A DNA stretch of 64,000 bases from Flavobacterium sp. 123 (GTDB lineage: Bacteria; Bacteroidota; Bacteroidia; Flavobacteriales; Flavobacteriaceae). The stretch lies in assembly GCF_003634825.1 (NCBI RefSeq), contig NZ_RBXD01000001.1:186001-250000 (forward strand). The letters run 5' to 3'. Of the stretch, positions 1,240 to 7,585 are shown piece by piece (the first letter of the stretch is position 1; each line of letters begins with the position of its first letter). A program made the translations under genes and the position numbers. The notes under the pieces are model-generated. The model was not told where the DNA came from. It saw only the letters and a list, made by a program, of their open reading frames with translations, and ran no database searches.

Positions 1240-1550
1240 ATTTACATTGCATATTGTTTTTGTAAGTATTTTTTTATATATTTAGCTAAATAAATACTAG
1301 AGCCTTTTATGGCACAAAGCCAACCTTTTCCGGGTAGATTGGTGCCATTTTATGGCTGGTATAAACGAGCTGTAGGCAATCCCTCATAGTACGCTGCCTT
1401 ACCTCCCGAAGCTACCGGCAGAAAGCGGAAAATGGAATGAATTTTTAAAGAAAAACAATGCTTTACAAATAATTAATTTTCAAAACATTACAAAAACGTT
1501 AGTTAGAATTTTAAAAACGAATCGCTAAAAACAATTAAAACCAAAATATT
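1240..1550. other. Non-coding stretch with a GC-richer structured island (1301-1440)
   Basis: No full gene fits here. The flanks are plain AT-rich DNA, but 1301-1440 is about half G+C, unlike its surroundings. It can fold: ATGGCA at 1309 pairs with TGCCAT near 1344, with CCAA/TTGG stacked inside. It also contains a short frame from ATG 1309 broken by an in-frame TAG at 1387-1389 that stays open to TGA 1438-1440 (43 sense-like codons if the amber is ignored). I do not recognise the peptide. Near the right end, AACGTTAGTTAG (1496-1507) resembles the right ends of the repeats farther on and may be the left edge of the cassette-like region. Confidence 0.5.
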
Positions 1551-1964
1551 ATGAAAAAAATTATCATCTATGGAATTCTTGCTTTAATAGGTTTTTTTAT
1601 GAATTCTTGCACTAAAAGTGAAAATGAGGAAATTATTGGAAAATGGGATGACAATATTAAATTATCTCAAAAGACAGCAACTCTAAATTCTAGTGAGAAT
1701 TATATTACTATTACAACCGAATCAACATTTTGGTGGTTGGGTGGTATTTCTCTTAACAATAAAAATATTGAATTGACAGACGTTGAAAAACTTTCTAAAA
1801 ATTTTGTGATTACAAATTCAGATTTCCAAGTTGAACGAAAAGAAGATGGAAAAAAAATTATTATTACATTAAATCAAAACAATACTAATTCTGAAAGAAT
1901 TCTAGTTGTAAGTATGCAAAATGGAGATTATTTTGATGGGGTGAGAATAATACAAGCCAAATAA
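1551..1964 (+). CDS. Hypothetical lipoprotein, possibly BACON-like
   Basis: A 137-residue protein with a lipoprotein signal peptide: basic start, hydrophobic stretch and a lipobox ending at Cys20 (FMNSC). The rest is beta-rich, with the pattern KLSQKTATLNSSENYITI followed by a tryptophan pair (FWWLGG). This recalls the Ig-like BACON domain of Bacteroidota surface proteins, though the match is by eye only. It is the single gene of the first cassette-like unit and is followed within 6 bp by a repeat copy. No function can be assigned. Confidence 0.75.
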   Translation: MKKIIIYGILALIGFFMNSCTKSENEEIIGKWDDNIKLSQKTATLNSSENYITITTESTFWWLGGISLNNKNIELTDVEKLSKNFVITNSDFQVERKEDGKKIIITLNQNNTNSERILVVSMQNGDYFDGVRIIQAK

Positions 1965-2110
1965 AAAAACTGCCTACAACACTTGCTACAATTGATTTGG
2001 GCAATAGGCTTAATTTGAAAATGAGTTGTATTTGGGATGTTTAAGCAAATCCGAACACAAGGCTTAATTTTACCCGATCGCTTGGATATGCAATAAATTT
2101 CTCGCTAACG

Positions 2111-2136
2111 GATAGCGCAGAATTGCATTCTGTGCC
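2111..2136 (+). repeat. REP-like palindrome, left copy
   Basis: A 26-bp sequence repeated exactly, inverted, at 2413-2438. Internally it is itself a hairpin: GCGCAGAAT, loop TGC, ATTCTGTGC (nine pairs, one G-U wobble). Paired inverted REPs flanking a RAYT gene are the known layout of REP/RAYT modules. Confidence 0.8.
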
Positions 2137-2215
2137 CATAAACGAGAGTAGGAGAAATAAGAAAAATTACATACGACTAAACGATTTAGCTTTTTATGTA
2201 TCTTTAAAACAAAAA

Positions 2216-2451
2216 ATGTCAACAAATACAAAGCTACAACAACAGACGAAGCCTATTTTATAACCATAACAACAGTAGGTTGGATAGATATTTTTACACG
2301 ACTGATCCAAAAATATGTTATTACCAATACTTTAAAACATTGCCAAGAAAAGAAAGGTTTAGAACTAAATGCCTATTGTTTAATGTCGAGTCATTTACAT
2401 ATTTTATGTAAAGGCACAGAATGCAATTCTGCGCTATCTACATTAATTTAG
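2216..2451 (+). pseudogene. Remnant of a REP-associated tyrosine transposase (RAYT, Y1_Tnp)
   Basis: From ATG 2216 the frame begins MST and is lost at once. After restoring one missing base near 2225 it reads on as YKATTTDEAYFITITTVGW and later CLMSSHLHILCK, the hallmark N-terminal half of RAYT/IS200-type Y1 transposases, with the HUH-type HLH metal motif. Intact RAYTs run to about 180 residues and hold a catalytic Tyr farther on; both are missing. The coding similarity stops where the right REP copy (2413-2438) begins, and TAG at 2449-2451 ends the frame. Frameshifted and truncated, so inactive. Confidence 0.8.
2413..2438 (-). repeat. REP-like palindrome, right copy (inverted)
   Basis: Exact inverted match, 26 of 26 bases, to 2111-2136. 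It abuts the point where RAYT similarity ends and lies just left of the resumption of repeat A's right arm. Confidence 0.8.
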
Positions 2452-2515
2452 TACCAAACCCGCTGTAGTACCAGAACGTTATGTAAGATTCCAAAAAAAT
2501 ACGGAATAATTTGAA

Positions 2516-2538
2516 AAGTTACCATTTTTTGGTAACTT
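2516..2538. promoter_or_regulatory. Palindromic operator of parDE
   Basis: Inverted repeat AAGTTACC - 7 nt - GGTAACTT, centred 26 bp upstream of the parD start. Type II antitoxins of the ribbon-helix-helix class bind such palindromes to repress their own operon, so this is the likely site of ParD autoregulation. The palindrome is seen; binding is inferred. Confidence 0.65.
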
Positions 2539-2552
2539 AGCTAAAAAAAATT

Positions 2553-2804
2553 ATGGGACGAAATACTTCTATATCGCTTGGTAATCATTTCGAAAGTTTT
2601 ATCGAACACAGTATAAATGATGGAAGATTCAATAACGCAAGTGAAGTTATCAGAGCTGGTCTTCGTCTTTTAGAAGATGAGGAAAATAAAATTGTAGCTT
2701 TAAGAAAAGCTATTAATGATGGAATTGAAAGTGGACGTGCAGTAGATTTTGATGCTAAAAAACATCTTAACGTTTTAAAAGCAAGAAAAAAATCAAATGG
2801 CTAA
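2553..2804 (+). CDS. parD: Type II antitoxin, ParD family (ribbon-helix-helix)
   Basis: An 83-residue protein matching CopG/ParD antitoxins: an N-terminal beta strand (NTSISLGNHFESFI) followed by two helices with the family phrase GRFNNASEVIRAGLRLLEDEE, and a charged C-terminus for toxin wrapping. It should neutralise the ParE toxin encoded next and repress the operon as a DNA-bound dimer. The reading frame overlaps parE by 8 bp, implying translational coupling. It occupies one unit between repeat copies A and B. Confidence 0.92.
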   Translation: MGRNTSISLGNHFESFIEHSINDGRFNNASEVIRAGLRLLEDEENKIVALRKAINDGIESGRAVDFDAKKHLNVLKARKKSNG

Positions 2805-3090
2805 ATATTATTTAACAAATAAAGCTGTTGATGACTTAACTGAAATTTGGGATTATACAATCGAAACTTGGTCCGAAATGCAAGCTGAAAAGTATTATGA
2901 TTTACTTATGGCATCATGTGATGATTTAGCAAATAATCCAGAACTTGGTAGAAACTATGATATAGTTACGAAAGGAATATTAAGTTTTAAATCCGGTGAA
3001 CATATTATTTTCTACTCAATTATATCAAAGAACGAAATAGAAATTGCAAGAATTCTTCATGGAATGATGGATTTAAAAAGCAGACTATAA
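2797..3090 (+). CDS. parE: Type II toxin, ParE/RelE superfamily
   Basis: A 97-residue RelE-fold toxin: YYLTNKAVDDLTEIWDYT at the start and a central SCDDLANNPELGRNYD segment, with the terminal strand EIARILHGMMDL that families of ParE share. ParE toxins poison DNA gyrase; RelE toxins cleave mRNA. The pairing with ParD and the loop pattern favour ParE. It overlaps parD by 8 bp, and its stop is immediately followed by repeat B. Length is normal and it appears intact. Confidence 0.9.
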   Translation: MAKYYLTNKAVDDLTEIWDYTIETWSEMQAEKYYDLLMASCDDLANNPELGRNYDIVTKGILSFKSGEHIIFYSIISKNEIEIARILHGMMDLKSRL

Positions 3091-3242
3091 GGAACCTCAA
3101 ATAACAGCTACTACAATGGATTTGGGCATTAGGCTTAATGGAAAGATGGTCTTGTATTTGCAAATTTTAGTCTTTAACCGAAAAATAAATCTTAATTTAG
3201 AACCCAAACCCGCTGTAGTGCCAGAACGTAAGTGGCTATTCC
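3091..3242 (+). repeat. attC-like repeat copy B
   Basis: Intact copy starting at the base after the parE stop. Its outer left end (3091-3105) is complementary at 12 of 15 positions to 2478-2492, the start of the same gene unit. Inner left arm CTACAATGGATTTGGGC at 3110; right arm CCCAAACCCGCTGTAGTGCC ending in AGAACGTAAG. The right 55 or so bases are nearly identical to those of copy C. Confidence 0.8.
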
Positions 3243-3277
3243 AAATTTATAATGAAAAAATTAATAAAAATTAGCCT

Positions 3278-4402
3278 ATGAGTTCAAATGAAACACAGAA
3301 TAAAACAAAATGGATTTTAAAATTCACTTTAAGTTTTTTATCTATTGTGGGTGGAATCGACTCGGTGCTCCATATTATTTTACCTCTTTTTCCTTATAAA
3401 CTGAATCAATACATAATTCCAATTGGAATGTCCTCTTTGATTACTGGAATTGTTTTTTCAATTGGATTATCATTTTATTGGCATTATAAAGAAAAAAATG
3501 ATTTAATTGATTCTCAAAAGTATTATATCTGGCTTACTACTATTTTGCGATATTGGCTTGCTTTTTATATTTCTACATTTGGTTTTGAAAAACTATTTGA
3601 TGTCAATTTTGCCTATTCCTATCATATTGAAGATGCATTAGTTAATACATTAACTGGTCAAGAACTGACTTGGAAATATTATGGACATTCCTATTATTTA
3701 ACAGTCATTATTGGTTTATTTCAAATAATAGGCAGTATTCTTTTATTATTTAGACGCACCACTTTGTTGGGAGTACTAACTCTTTTACCTGTTCAAATCA
3801 ATATTCTATTGATTAATCTATTTTATGGAATTGGCCCACTTACTACTTTCACATCAATAATTATGGTAATAGGACTATCCTATTTATCCTTAGAAAGAAA
3901 AGAGGAAATAATTGATTTTTTTAGGCGTTATAAAAGCACATTACCTACCGTCGGAAATACAACATTGCGCAAATCAATACGTTTTTTGTGCATCTTAATT
4001 CCATTTCTATTTGTATTCTATTATAGTTATGATGTACGGAAATCAAAGAAATATTTCGGTAAATGGAAAGTCGAATCGATGACCCGTAATGGAAGAGTAA
4101 TTCTTGAAAATGAATGGCAAAAAGATACTTTAGCTTGGAAAACATTATATATAGAAGAAAGAGGAAAAATGTATTTTTGTCCAAATCCACACCTGTATTT
4201 GGATAGTATTTCAATACTTATGAAGTATCAATACGATGATGATAAAAATCAAAATTTCAAAGTTATATCCTTCGAAAAAAGCAGAAATAAACCTGATACA
4301 ATTCCTGTTCTTATTTCCAAATTTAAAGACAAATCAATGCAGTGGAAAATGATTTTATATAAAGACACTATTCAAATGGAATTGAAAAAAGTGAATCTTT
4401 AA
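3278..4402 (+). CDS. Multi-pass membrane protein, DoxX-like, with soluble C-terminal domain
   Basis: A 374-residue protein with about seven hydrophobic segments (roughly residues 12-34, 42-65, 85-104, 135-157, 163-186, 188-205 and 231-249), then a soluble domain of about 120 residues (YFGKWKVESM onward) resembling small lipocalin-like domains of Bacteroidota. The membrane part recalls DoxX-like proteins, including the phrase YWLAFYISTFGFEKLF. No catalytic motif is visible and I cannot assign a function. It is the only gene between repeat copies B and C. Confidence 0.7.
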   Translation: MSSNETQNKTKWILKFTLSFLSIVGGIDSVLHIILPLFPYKLNQYIIPIGMSSLITGIVFSIGLSFYWHYKEKNDLIDSQKYYIWLTTILRYWLAFYISTFGFEKLFDVNFAYSYHIEDALVNTLTGQELTWKYYGHSYYLTVIIGLFQIIGSILLLFRRTTLLGVLTLLPVQINILLINLFYGIGPLTTFTSIIMVIGLSYLSLERKEEIIDFFRRYKSTLPTVGNTTLRKSIRFLCILIPFLFVFYYSYDVRKSKKYFGKWKVESMTRNGRVILENEWQKDTLAWKTLYIEERGKMYFCPNPHLYLDSISILMKYQYDDDKNQNFKVISFEKSRNKPDTIPVLISKFKDKSMQWKMILYKDTIQMELKKVNL

Positions 4403-4406
4403 AAAA

Positions 4407-4553
4407 TGGACGCCTAAAAGCTACTACAACGGATTTGGGCTTTATGCTTAATTTAAAGTTAGTTTTGTTTTAGGAAGTTTAGTGATAACCGAAAAATAAA
4501 TCTTAATTTAGAACCCAAACCCGCTGTAGTACCAGAACGTTATAGGTGATTTT
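4407..4553 (+). repeat. attC-like repeat copy C
   Basis: Intact copy starting 4 bp after the membrane-protein stop. Inner arms CTACAACGGATTTGGGC (4424) and CCCAAACCCGCTGTAG (4514) pair almost fully. The right half is nearly identical to copy B over about 55 bases; the right end reads CCAGAACGTTATAGG. The crp start (4570) follows directly. Confidence 0.8.
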
Positions 4554-4569
4554 ATCACAACCCTACAAA

Positions 4570-5151
4570 ATGACAGAGATATTAAAACAGAACATATCAA
4601 AACATATCTCACTTTCCGAAATAGAAATGATGGACTTTTGCGGTTTATTTCAAAAAAAATCTATCAAGAAGAAAGAATTTTTATTACGAGAAGGTGAAAT
4701 TTGCAAATTTGAAGGTTTTGTTACAAAAGGTCTTTTCCGCGTATACCATATTGATAATAATGGCTTTGAGCAAGTACTATATTTCGCTATTGAAAATTGG
4801 TGGATTACAGATATGGACAGTTTTACTAACGAAAAACCATCAAATCTATACATTGAAGCATTAGAAGATAGCGAAGTGCTATTGATTTCAAAAAAAGACA
4901 AAGAATTTGCATATGAAAATTTACCCAAAATAGAAAAACTATTTAGGATAATGACCCAAAAGACGCACATTGCTTTACAACGCAGAATAATAGATAATTT
5001 GAGTAAAACTGCTGACCAACGTTACATTGATTTTATAGAAAAATATCCTCAACTTTTCCAAAGATTGACTAATCTTCATATAGCGGCTTACCTTGGTATC
5101 AGCCATGAATTTTTGAGTAAAATCAGAAAAAAAAATTCCATAAAAAAATAG
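4570..5151 (+). CDS. Crp/Fnr-family transcription regulator
   Basis: A 193-residue protein with an N-terminal cyclic-nucleotide-binding beta-barrel (ending near residue 110) and a C-terminal winged helix whose recognition region is LHIAAYLGISHEFLSKIRKK. It lacks the N-terminal cysteine cluster of oxygen-sensing FNR, so its ligand is unknown. The start is taken as ATG 4570 because the longer frame begins at GTG 4546 inside repeat C. A palindrome lies 15 bp after its stop, in front of the next gene, so it probably controls the downstream operon. It forms one cassette-like unit with the next three genes. Confidence 0.85.
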   Translation: MTEILKQNISKHISLSEIEMMDFCGLFQKKSIKKKEFLLREGEICKFEGFVTKGLFRVYHIDNNGFEQVLYFAIENWWITDMDSFTNEKPSNLYIEALEDSEVLLISKKDKEFAYENLPKIEKLFRIMTQKTHIALQRRIIDNLSKTADQRYIDFIEKYPQLFQRLTNLHIAAYLGISHEFLSKIRKKNSIKK

Positions 5152-5165
5152 ATACAAATTGATTT

Positions 5166-5211
5166 ATTGAACTTGTTCAATGTTTTTGAATATTGAATGA
5201 TTGCACCTTTG
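5166..5211 (+). promoter_or_regulatory. Palindrome plus -7-like element before the MBL operon
   Basis: ATTGAAC-TT-GTTCAAT (5166-5181) is a perfect 7-2-7 palindrome. A -7-like CACCTTTG (consensus TAnnTTTG, first base off) lies at 5204-5211. The palindrome centre is 37.5 bp from the last G, so near -41 from the expected start, the class II activator position. The adjacent Crp-type regulator is the obvious candidate. Confidence 0.5.
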
Positions 5212-5237
5212 CATCATTAATAGTGAAATTTTCAAAT

Positions 5238-6128
5238 ATGAAAAACAGTATTTCAAAAGTATTTTTAACAACTTTAATTTTATTCAATATGGAATCACAA
5301 GCACAAAGTTTCAAAACAATTGAAACCAAAGATCTAAAACTTCAAGTTTACAACGCATCAGAAAACAGTTTTGGTGTAGCATCGGTAATCGTAAGTGGCA
5401 AAACAGATGCCGTTTTAATCGACGCACAATTTACTTTGGAAGATGCCGAAAAAGTGGCTCAGGAAATTAAAAATTCTGGCAAAAAACTAACAACAATATT
5501 TGTTTCACACGGTGACCCTGATTTTTATTTCGGATTAGAAGTATTCAAAAAATATTTTCCCGAAGTTACAGCTTACGCATCACCTGCAACGGTTGAACAC
5601 ATAAAAGCGACCGCTCAAAAGAAATTAGAAGTTTGGGGCGAAAGACTGGGCAAAAACATAACATCAAATGTTATTTTGCCACAAGTTTTAAAAGGAAACA
5701 GCATAGAATTGGAAGGTCAGAGATTAGAAATAATTGGTTTGGAAGATTTTCCGAATAAAACTTTTGTTTGGATTCCTTCAATCAAAGCAGTTGTTGGCGG
5801 TATTAATGTGTTCGGAACTACTTTTCATCTTTGGATGGCAGATGCACAAACCCCAGAAGCTCGCAAAAATTGGATTGCGGTTTTAGACAAAATTGAAGCA
5901 CTACATCCTGAAATTGTAATTCCTGCTCACGCCAATTCTCAAAGCCCATTTGATATTAGTGCGGAAAAACATACTAAAAATTACATTCAATTTTACGAAG
6001 AAGCCTTGAAAACCAACAAAACTTCGGAGGTCTTAATCAAAGCCCTTAAAGCAAAATACCCTACATTAACTTTTGAAACCGCTTTAATGATTGGTGCAAA
6101 AGTAAACACTGGAGAAATGAAATGGTAA
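5238..6128 (+). CDS. Secreted metallo-beta-lactamase-fold hydrolase
   Basis: A 296-residue protein with a signal peptide ending near MESQAQS, then an MBL fold. Usual MBL zinc motif HxHxDH reads HGDPDF (in FVSHGDPDFYFG), so two or more first-site ligands are altered; the later motifs PAHAN and the strand WIPSIKAVVGG are retained. The family is often annotated only as MBL-fold hydrolase and is not a demonstrated beta-lactamase. Start at ATG 5238 is chosen because the signal peptide begins there. It is followed by two NTF2-like genes at 7 and 1 bp, so the three form an operon. Confidence 0.8.
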   Translation: MKNSISKVFLTTLILFNMESQAQSFKTIETKDLKLQVYNASENSFGVASVIVSGKTDAVLIDAQFTLEDAEKVAQEIKNSGKKLTTIFVSHGDPDFYFGLEVFKKYFPEVTAYASPATVEHIKATAQKKLEVWGERLGKNITSNVILPQVLKGNSIELEGQRLEIIGLEDFPNKTFVWIPSIKAVVGGINVFGTTFHLWMADAQTPEARKNWIAVLDKIEALHPEIVIPAHANSQSPFDISAEKHTKNYIQFYEEALKTNKTSEVLIKALKAKYPTLTFETALMIGAKVNTGEMKW

Positions 6129-6135
6129 AATAATA

Positions 6136-6582
6136 ATGTACAGCTTGGTAATGCTGTTGGCATTGTCAAGCTGTTATTTAAATAAAACAGCAATGACAAA
6201 TCTTGAAATTATAAAAAGCACTTACGAAGGAAAAACATCCGAAGAAAATGGCAAAAATTTGGATAAGTATGCAGCCGAGGATATCTATTGGACAGAAGCC
6301 AAGGGTTTTCCATATGCAGGAACTTATATTGGCATAGAAAACATTACCAAAAATGTTTTTAGTAGATTGGGAAGTGAATGGATTAATTATAAATTTACAC
6401 CTGAAGATTACATTGCTAGTGATGATAAAGTTGTTGCCTACGGAACTTACACAGGAACTTACAAGATTACAAACAAATCATTTACTGCAAGAGTAGCCCA
6501 CGTTTGGAAACTTAAAGACGGAAAAATAATTAGCTTTGAGCAGTTTGTGGATAGTAAAATCGTTAATAATTCAATGAAATAA
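6136..6582 (+). CDS. NTF2/SnoaL-like lipoprotein
   Basis: A 148-residue protein. The first 13 residues form a short lipoprotein signal with lipobox LALSSC. The mature part has the cone-shaped NTF2/SnoaL pattern: IIKSTYEGKTSEENGKNLDK, then DIYWTEAKGFPYAGTYIG and a terminal HVWKLKDGKIISFEQFVDS. Such folds are polyketide cyclases, dehydratases or small-molecule binders; the role here is unknown. It lies between the MBL gene and another NTF2-like gene. An internal ATG at 6193 (MTNLEIIKS) would give a cytoplasmic form, which is a real alternative start. Confidence 0.75.
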   Translation: MYSLVMLLALSSCYLNKTAMTNLEIIKSTYEGKTSEENGKNLDKYAAEDIYWTEAKGFPYAGTYIGIENITKNVFSRLGSEWINYKFTPEDYIASDDKVVAYGTYTGTYKITNKSFTARVAHVWKLKDGKIISFEQFVDSKIVNNSMK

Positions 6583-6583
6583 T

Positions 6584-7033
6584 ATGAAAAAAATTGTATT
6601 AATTGTTGTCGTATTTGTTTTTAGCATTTCGGCAAACGCACAAACCAAAAGAAATATAAAACAAGAAGAAGCCAACAAGAAATTAGTTGTTACATTTTAT
6701 CAGCAACTCATTGGTGACAAAGACGTAGTTGCAATTGATAAATTTTTGGATAACAATTTTATCACACACAATCCAACGATGCTAAATGGTAAAGAGCCTT
6801 TGAGAACAGCATTCTTAAAGGACTTTAGTAAAGCACCTAAAATAAAAATAGATTATAGGCACGTTGGAGCAGATGGGGATTTAGTTTTTTTACACATCAA
6901 AATGACCAGACCAGACGGAAAAGTGGAAGCAATTGCAGATATTTTCAAAATCAAGAACAATAAAATAATAGAAATGTGGGATGTTATACAAGAAGTTCCT
7001 GAAAATTCGGCAAATGAACATCCTATGTTTTAA
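6584..7033 (+). CDS. NTF2/SnoaL-like secreted protein
   Basis: A 149-residue protein with a Sec signal peptide ending SANAQ near residue 20. The mature region has the NTF2 arrangement: LVVTFYQQLIGDKDVVAIDK, THNPTMLNGKEPLR, then DIFKIKNNKIIEMWDVIQEVP. Homologous proteins are annotated as nuclear transport factor 2 family or SnoaL-like and have no fixed reaction. It starts 1 bp after the preceding stop, so it is translationally coupled to it. The stop is followed by a truncated repeat end (copy D), which closes the cassette-like region. Confidence 0.8.
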   Translation: MKKIVLIVVVFVFSISANAQTKRNIKQEEANKKLVVTFYQQLIGDKDVVAIDKFLDNNFITHNPTMLNGKEPLRTAFLKDFSKAPKIKIDYRHVGADGDLVFLHIKMTRPDGKVEAIADIFKIKNNKIIEMWDVIQEVPENSANEHPMF

Positions 7034-7039
7034 AAAAAA

Positions 7040-7075
7040 ACTGCCACTAACAGCCGTTTTGCGCAATTACGAATT
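7040..7075 (+). repeat. attC-like repeat copy D, left arm only
   Basis: After the last NTF2-like gene come ACTGCCACTAAC and AGCCGTTTTGCGCAATTACG, in the same position as the left arms of copies A to C. No right arm (AAACCCGCTG...AGAACGTT) follows. This marks where the array was truncated or where the chromosomal backbone resumes. Confidence 0.5.
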
Positions 7076-7090
7076 TGTGGTCTTTTTTTA

Positions 7091-7129: not shown

Positions 7130-7585
7130 ATGATACACTCCAAAAGAACCAATTCTGAAGATTCTGATTTTAAAAAATTGGTGGTTTTATTAGACCAACA
7201 TTTAGCCATTTTGGATGGTGAAGATCATGCCTTTTATTCCCAATTCGACACTCTTGATAATATCAATAATGTGGTGGTTTGCTATCAGGAATCCACCGCT
7301 ATAGGATGTGGCGCATTCAAAGTATACGATAGCAATACCGTTGAAATCAAACGAATGTTTGTTCATCCTGATTTTCGTGGAAAAGGAATTGCTAGTACCC
7401 TTTTAAAAGAACTTGAAAACTGGGCAACTGAATTTAATTATACCGCCTGCGTTTTAGAAACTGGCAAAAACAATCCAACCGCAATTCAATTGTATAACAA
7501 ATCTGGTTACCAAATAATTCCTAATTATGATCAATATGAAAATGTAGCAACTAGTGTCTGCATGAAAAAATTGATGTCTAAATAA
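7130..7585 (+). CDS. GNAT-family N-acetyltransferase
   Basis: A 151-residue GCN5-related acetyltransferase that transfers an acetyl group from acetyl-CoA. The CoA-binding motif A is clear: MFVHPDFRGKGIASTLL, with R-G-K-G at residues 83-86, and the later LYNKSGYQIIPNY matches motif B. Length is normal. The substrate cannot be predicted. It stands alone between the cassette-like region and the TetR efflux operon, with its own -7 element at 7091. Confidence 0.88.
   Translation: MIHSKRTNSEDSDFKKLVVLLDQHLAILDGEDHAFYSQFDTLDNINNVVVCYQESTAIGCGAFKVYDSNTVEIKRMFVHPDFRGKGIASTLLKELENWATEFNYTACVLETGKNNPTAIQLYNKSGYQIIPNYDQYENVATSVCMKKLMSK

Follow-up and report, generated by a model that had tools for sequence, protein, structure and literature searches.

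Classical integrons move gene cassettes through folded attC sites, whose extrahelical bases are described as favouring one strand and preventing a second exchange (PMC4792948). The additional domain of the integrase IntI is described as necessary for integron recombination and is used by IntegronFinder to recognise IntI (PMC9668308). Bacteroidota are counted among the phyla with integrons in one review (PMC8618304), and by the account of the IntegronFinder 2.0 survey complete integrons are rare in the phylum, with a single one in Bacteroidetes proper, that of Salinibacter ruber (PMC9024848). Because IntegronFinder keys on the IntI domain, arrays headed by a different enzyme would be scored as integrase-less or missed. 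Here we describe a probable case in a stretch of 64,000 nucleotides from Flavobacterium sp. 123 (contig NZ_RBXD01000001.1, positions 186,001 to 250,000), hereafter the window. Positions 1259-7080 of the window are a headless, decaying cassette platform that consists of the end of a recombinase gene, an attI-like site and four cassettes (Table 1). Very probably, in our view, this platform without a recombinase belongs to an integron-like system of the Bacteroidota whose cassettes are moved by a Xer-like recombinase that is not IntI. The system appears to represent integron-type gene capture by a different recombinase and to be widespread in Flavobacterium-like bacteria. A title-level literature search, with bioRxiv and most subscription journals outside its scope, found no published description of such a system among the titles listed.

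The original prediction for this region had seen copies of a repeat of about 150 bp, with complementary arms, between unrelated genes on one strand. Copies and complementary arms were located where claimed, copies B and C indeed have nearly identical right ends (91% over 66 nt), and the enclosed genes are unrelated and lie on the same strand. Copy A is broken by an insertion with a 26-nt inverted repeat, and D retains a left arm only. The left part of the repeat is present three times (1977, 3102, 4415), as is the right part (2454, 3204, 4515). The start of the array, previously put at 1495, has to be moved upstream to an attI-like site: the stretch 1259-1369 matches, with 86% identity over 112 bp (E 3e-30), the region of a relative (L052) that runs from the recombinase stop codon through the attI-like stretch, and two further loci (L051 and L064) match likewise. 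From this match it follows that the window retains the gene end and the attI-like site, while the body of the gene is gone; the exchange point after G1369 takes its position from relatives. The region had alternatively been read as a cluster of attC-like sites without an integrase, and the window array has in fact lost its recombinase. In having none inside the window it resembles a CALIN (cluster of attC sites lacking integron-integrases), but it differs in keeping an attI-like site and in having sites of another type than classical attC. The deviation of its ends from the integron motifs RYYYAAC/GTTRRRY, also noted before, is real and due to the decay of the window array; in intact arrays elsewhere, AAC and GTT are present at the sites.

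Sites were identified with a finder that requires ACGTT together with arm complementarity, and with a covariance model, R1. As controls, the finder accepted 0 of 65 motifs in 55 kb of the window and 0 of 185 in shuffled sequence, the shuffles preserving base composition only. R1 was built from 30 sites, none of them from the window (147 finder sites reduced to 57 non-redundant ones, of which 34 had a suitable length and locus), and its pair counts are biased towards structure. Within the window it scored site C (4407-4548) at 88.3 bits, site B (3094-3237) at 83.7 and the left part of A (1969-2106) at 24.1; other than these, the 64 kb gave only a match on the opposite strand of C (E 0.63) and two more with E values of 3.1 and 5.2. 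Rfam yielded three matches in the first 9 kb, all below gathering score. The original prediction had proposed a covariance search over relatives, and held that a repeat confined to this strain, or always found with the same neighbours, would be an ordinary intergenic repeat. As evidenced by R1, 88 of the 101 same-genus genomes, own included, carry the site at E <= 0.001, and the sites separate unrelated genes, so that neither of these conditions holds.

The proposed search for a tyrosine recombinase linked to arrays showed that many arrays are headed by one. The own genome (2.92 Mb, one contig) gave four tyrosine recombinase matches and no IntI above the profile cut-off, and it encodes a recombinase of 347 residues with an array of its own. 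The DoxX-like cassette of the window is duplicated in this recombinase-linked array (97.8% over 1212 bp, L012 5470-4259), and the similarity starts at the exchange point and stops within the left arm of the site. The same array holds a 700-bp cassette body twice in tandem, 100% identical. Eleven R1 matches were obtained in the own genome; among the part of them with positions, two same-type sites lie far from both arrays (687393-687532, plus strand, and 2182726-2182864, minus strand).

Orthologs of the recombinase with 59-83% identity occur in 34 of the 101 same-genus genomes, own included, and relatives with 38-51% identity in 20 further ones (both hand counts). The finder detected sites downstream in 24 of 42 recombinase loci, single sites on the other strand in 2 and upstream sites in none, with mostly 1.5 kb upstream examined. 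R1 adds four site-bearing loci (L052, L056, L073 and L048) and a partial match in L060. At least 80 loci from named hosts, which do not constitute a census, were also analysed. In 18 of 80 the finder placed sites downstream and in one more it found a minus-strand site only, and R1, run on 43 of the 80, returned 50 matches, of which 47 (from 16 loci) are downstream and same-strand, one is upstream and two are on the other strand. Hosts with downstream sites include Flavobacterium aciduliphilum, F. enshiense, Algoriphagus ornithinivorans, Algibacter onchidii and Winogradskyella ursingii, and a recombinase of 69% identity, together with an array, is present on a plasmid of Chryseobacterium sp. 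SNU WT5. In the phylum, about 69 of 198 genomes have a best match to the family profile at E <= 1e-80 (hand count), many without the N-terminal extension; this count refers to recombinase matches and not to arrays. Within the genus, genomes with a recombinase at E <= 1e-50 (54 of 101, hand-read) have a median of 18.5 sites, as opposed to 3 in the 47 without (p 5e-7), counted from the best 32 candidates per genome; a later scan, which included the own genome, used the best 150.

The system is seen at its largest in a complete same-genus genome of 3.46 Mb (G073), where 176 kb directly 3' of the recombinase hold 241 sites on one strand and 3 on the other. The longer open reading frame (at least 60 aa) lies on the array strand in 205 of 239 cassettes and on the other strand in 2; the remaining 32 lack such a frame. 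In 235 of the 241 sites the right arm has an identical sequence. Of 176 cassette proteins, 75 were scanned against Pfam and gave few matches, to 14 families with one or two members each.

A unit that is excised as a circle must rejoin its two ends into one site, and these ends have to be complementary. The cassette start (GTTNNNNNN) was compared with the reverse complement of the cassette's own end, and all six variable bases match in 74 of 95 cases, against 6 of 95 when the halves of one linear site are compared and 35 of 922 when starts are paired with the ends of other cassettes. In the superarray of G073 the corresponding values are 216 of 239, 17 of 239 and 2193 of 56882. As in integrons, the cassette is a gene plus a site, with complementary R' and R'' at its own ends. 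The superarray also contains six pairs of non-adjacent, 100% identical cassettes (108 and 205, 134 and 231, 156 and 214, 158 and 210, 9 and 163, 57 and 174), with similarity extending about 120-140 nt upstream, which is about the site. Three near-identical pairs have some 370 nt upstream in common, so that part of the preceding unit is shared there as well.

In most loci the distance from recombinase gene to array falls into one of two groups. The first cassette starts +92 to +106 nt past the recombinase stop, after TATAWACNAG, in 15 of 24 loci, and at +147 to +207 nt after a different sequence in a second group (L080, L081, L083-L085). By its position this would be an attI next to the gene of its enzyme, as in integrons. 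In 10 of the 15 loci the motif TAnnTTTG, which we take to be of the Bacteroidota -7 type, occurs at +12 to +16; note that the plus strand of the window has 61 such motifs per 64 kb.

The best placed of the alternatives, an ordinary integron whose divergent IntI has lost its extra domain and whose sites are degenerate attC, is nevertheless improbable. The likeness is considerable. As in integrons, an attI-like site lies next to the recombinase gene, the cassettes are on one strand and carry hairpin sites, the junctions are at GTT, and the two ends of a cassette are privately complementary; clusters without a recombinase, a cassette with a toxin-antitoxin pair and an array of more than 200 cassettes are further parallels. 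The recombinase also reaches 207.6 bits with the integron-integrase profile integrase_gron, but this is below the cut-off of 265 and the alignment has a gap at the IntI insertion. Its best NCBIfam model is NF040815, 'site-specific tyrosine recombinase/integron integrase' (225.2 bits, cut-off 220), and its best PDB match is the XerC-like 4a8e, presumably an archaeal enzyme. The span from KGxKDR to HxLRH measures 56-57 residues in 38 of 38 family members and 98 in 31 of 31 IntI, IntI1 included, and a quick tree of 109 of 151 rows shows IntI as a single clade (value 100) with the family outside; the broken or partial L060, L062, L072 and L078 were left out of both. A joint clade of IntI and the family was rejected by an approximately unbiased test on 37 rows (p 2.5e-7). 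The enzyme is therefore not an IntI-clade integrase with the additional domain, and it differs further by its N-terminal extension. None of 12 further genomes with arrays has an IntI above cut-off. True IntI above cut-off do occur in 84 of 296 phylum genomes, more than the integron survey suggests, and their loci (L171-L200, L202-L213) were used as same-phylum controls. The location of the array 3' of the recombinase was discarded as a unique trait: seven IntI loci have 5' sites, but R2, a covariance model of classical sites, shows 3' sites in four (L202, L204, L207 and L208). The idea that the N-terminal extension is HARP-like was dropped as well, with nothing above cut-off in Pfam and a best hit of 17.9 bits (cut-off 26.5) to DUF5710 in one of seven stretches.

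The sites of the two systems differ as well. Among 29 classical sites, taken from seven of 12 IntI loci, extra bases are found on the left arm only in 28 and on both arms in one, whereas the 147 new sites have them on the left only in 7, on the right only in 38, on both in one and on neither in 101. Left-arm extra bases are thus present in 29 of 29 classical and in 8 of 147 new sites. The reference list holds 28 of the classical sites, one of 198 nt being excluded, and R2 was built from 19 of these 28. The spacers are alike in the 29 and the 147 sites (left mostly 1-2 nt, right mostly 5-6 nt), and this rules out the idea that the central spacer is a mirror image of that in classical attC. The new sites carry fixed mismatches instead. 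In a set of 78 distinct stems, each matching at 12 or more of 18 positions, 77 are unpaired at position 14 (74 of them with A on the left and C on the right), while at position 5 there is T/G in 53 stems and C/G in 17. R1 gave 0 matches in 12 IntI loci, and R2, which detects 43 sites, its training sites among them, in 10 IntI loci, returned one weak match (E 0.007) from nine sources of the new family. The attC-type stem is present in these sites, but the left-arm extrahelical bases that mark classical attC are mostly missing. The joint absence of the IntI domain and of extrahelical bases is coherent, as XerCD are described without I2-like domains and the CTXphi stem without extrahelical bases (PMC4792948). 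The system appears to function like an integron, yet by these two tested features it lies outside the integron family as now defined.

It is a shade less probable still that the host enzymes XerC and XerD move the cassettes, as they do for hairpin phages, and that the linked recombinase is a passenger. Such enzymes are at hand, with some match at E <= 1e-30 in 98 of the 101 genomes; in genomes without the family the matches are mostly 31-36% identical and about 300 aa long, and probably XerC-like. The stems also recall the hairpin used by XerCD in CTXphi, free of extrahelical bases in the same account (PMC4792948), and many arrays lack the recombinase. The recombinase itself is similar to XerC, XerD and archaeal XerA in having no IntI-like insertion and in its best database matches. 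Nevertheless, in 15 of 24 loci the array follows at a near-fixed distance 3' of the recombinase with a conserved attI-like site, and site number follows the presence of the recombinase. Unlike the Xer enzymes of chromosome dimer resolution, which act at dif and are expected in nearly every genome, the family is patchy among genomes (54 of 101 at E <= 1e-50), is linked to multi-cassette arrays with an attI-like site of their own, and has the N-terminal extension. A repeat resembling a miniature inverted-repeat transposable element or a repetitive extragenic palindrome (REP), spread between genes by another mobile element with no exchange of cassettes, would suit the two sites of the own genome that lie far from both arrays (687393 and 2182726) but is highly improbable given the private complementarity between the two ends of each gene unit, which drops to near background at the repeat itself, and the 241 one-strand sites in a row behind one gene.

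For the Xer-like cassette system that we favour, the complete form would consist of a Xer-like tyrosine recombinase, usually with an N-terminal extension, an attI-like site and promoter-like motif about 100-200 nt 3' of its stop codon, and gene cassettes on one strand, each ending in a hairpin-forming site of 130-175 nt. The recombinase would cut inside the invariant GTT; the data bound the exact cut to this triplet, and a position between G and TT is placed by analogy with integrons. The cassette would leave as a circle in which its start GTTNNNNNN and its end, the reverse complement, rejoin into a full hairpin, and the circle would be inserted at attI. The hairpin may be used as a folded single strand, and it may be the fixed mismatches at stem positions 5 and 14, in place of extrahelical bases, that determine which strand is used. 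The window platform, which lies beside trpA and has lost its recombinase, was perhaps served in trans by the copy near dnaK. A headless state of this kind recurs: four arrays from three recombinase-less genomes keep the attI-like head as the window does, and one genome (G004, L232) retains a 3' piece of the recombinase gene.

Several observations weigh against this interpretation. Recombination itself was unobserved, and excision and insertion are read from genomic traces. Thirteen of the 42 recombinase loci have no site by finder or R1, five of them on contigs that end within 0.3 kb, and four loci (L082, L086, L087 and L088) have none by either method in over 15 kb. Of the 47 genomes in which the recombinase is missing, 12 carry at least 10 sites, so that array and enzyme frequently occur separately, and 3 of the 54 genomes with the recombinase have zero sites. 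The first cassette falls outside both position groups in 4 of 24 loci (L053, L066, L072 and L090), and the promoter-like motif is missing in 5 of 15. The covariation is partly circular, as sites were selected by arm complementarity. The cassettes of the window have imperfect ends: in cassette 1 the start GCTGTAGGC is complementary to its own end GCCTACAAC at 8 of 9 positions, and in cassettes 2, 3 and 4 start and own end match at 7, 4 and 6 of 9 bases. Finally, the XerC/XerD-like enzymes of the host are widespread and could act.

The alternative suggestion of the original prediction, an undescribed cassette-exchange system of the Bacteroidota, has held up, with the array assigned to a cassette system with its own non-IntI recombinase. 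On balance we lean towards a second origin of integron-type capture, with a Xer-like enzyme that lacks the IntI domain and acts on hairpins free of the classical extrahelical bases, a strand choice set by mismatches, superarrays of more than 200 cassettes across Bacteroidota, and headless attI platforms such as that of the window served in trans. If the cassettes are moved by a non-IntI recombinase, integron-type gene-capture platforms arose more than once. A system with neither the IntI domain nor the classical extrahelical bases would allow a direct test of how an enzyme of the Xer type acquired the ability to recombine folded single strands, and of what makes the reaction unidirectional. 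The arrays also add a large pool of mobile genes, most of them unknown, to a phylum in which complete integrons are reported as rare (PMC9024848).

Table 1. Features of the window array and of related loci (window positions unless stated otherwise).
Feature	Position	Strand	Remarks
Array-linked tyrosine recombinase, 347 residues	2,436,823-2,437,863 of own genome		Same-strand array directly 3'
Last bases of lost recombinase gene (TTTGTAA), then attI-like site	1259-1369	+	Exchange point put after G1369
Cassette 1: predicted lipoprotein gene 1551-1964, attC-like site A 1972-2478 (interrupted)	1370-2478	+	
Insertion inside site A	2111-2438	not assigned	Perfect 26-nt inverted repeat 2111-2136 / 2413-2438
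Cassette 2: parD 2553-2804, parE 2797-3090, site B	2479-3228	+	Pfam PF03693, PF05016
Cassette 3: DoxX-like membrane protein gene 3278-4402, site C	3229-4539	+	Copy in recombinase-linked array
Cassette 4: Crp/Fnr-like 4570-5151, metallo-beta-lactamase-fold 5193-6128, SnoaL/NTF2-like 6136-6582 and 6584-7033, site D	4540-7080	+	Pfam PF00027, PF00753, PF12680, PF07366
Site D, truncated, left arm only	7043-7080	+	About 80% to a site of the recombinase-linked array
Group II introns and IS110 element	L090 20260-24577 and 29043-29634	opposite	Beside cassette sites, Chryseobacterium plasmid

Neither the lipoprotein of cassette 1 nor the DoxX-like protein of cassette 3 has a Pfam match, the latter label being that of the original prediction. 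The inner reading frame of the insertion in site A resembles what we take to be a fragment of a REP-associated transposase. The window array sits between trpA and tetR. The gap between these genes measures 93-342 bp in four of 14 relatives (L246, L247, L248 and L251), they are farther apart in two (L244 and L245), and tetR is absent from the examined trpA flank in the remaining 8. A GNAT gene at 7130-7585, between array and tetR, had no tblastn match (1e-8) beside trpA in the 14 relatives within the flank examined and is possibly part of the insertion. In another genome (G005) an attI-like site (77%, 109 bp) occupies the same trpA-tetR place, with likeness to the window array confined to sites and attI, and tblastn (1e-3) found no recombinase in the 30 kb read there.

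Some recombinases of the family deviate in architecture. Two (L230 4117-5829 and L231 2308-4011) have about 590 residues, with an N-terminal part that by eye looks like three copies of the WS..W extension, and are followed by same-type sites on the same strand. The recombinases of L080 and L053 have similar N-terminal extensions and different catalytic parts, a pattern that suggests recombination between array recombinases. One genome (G045) encodes, besides two array-type recombinases, five nearly equal-scoring copies of a 328-residue tyrosine recombinase on its contig C1 (e.g. 195685-196527). Both group II introns and IS110 elements include members known to target attC. As read from the sequence of the SNU WT5 plasmid array, one site has a group II intron directly at its left edge, another is split at that edge by an IS110 element, and a third has a further copy of the intron at the same distance.

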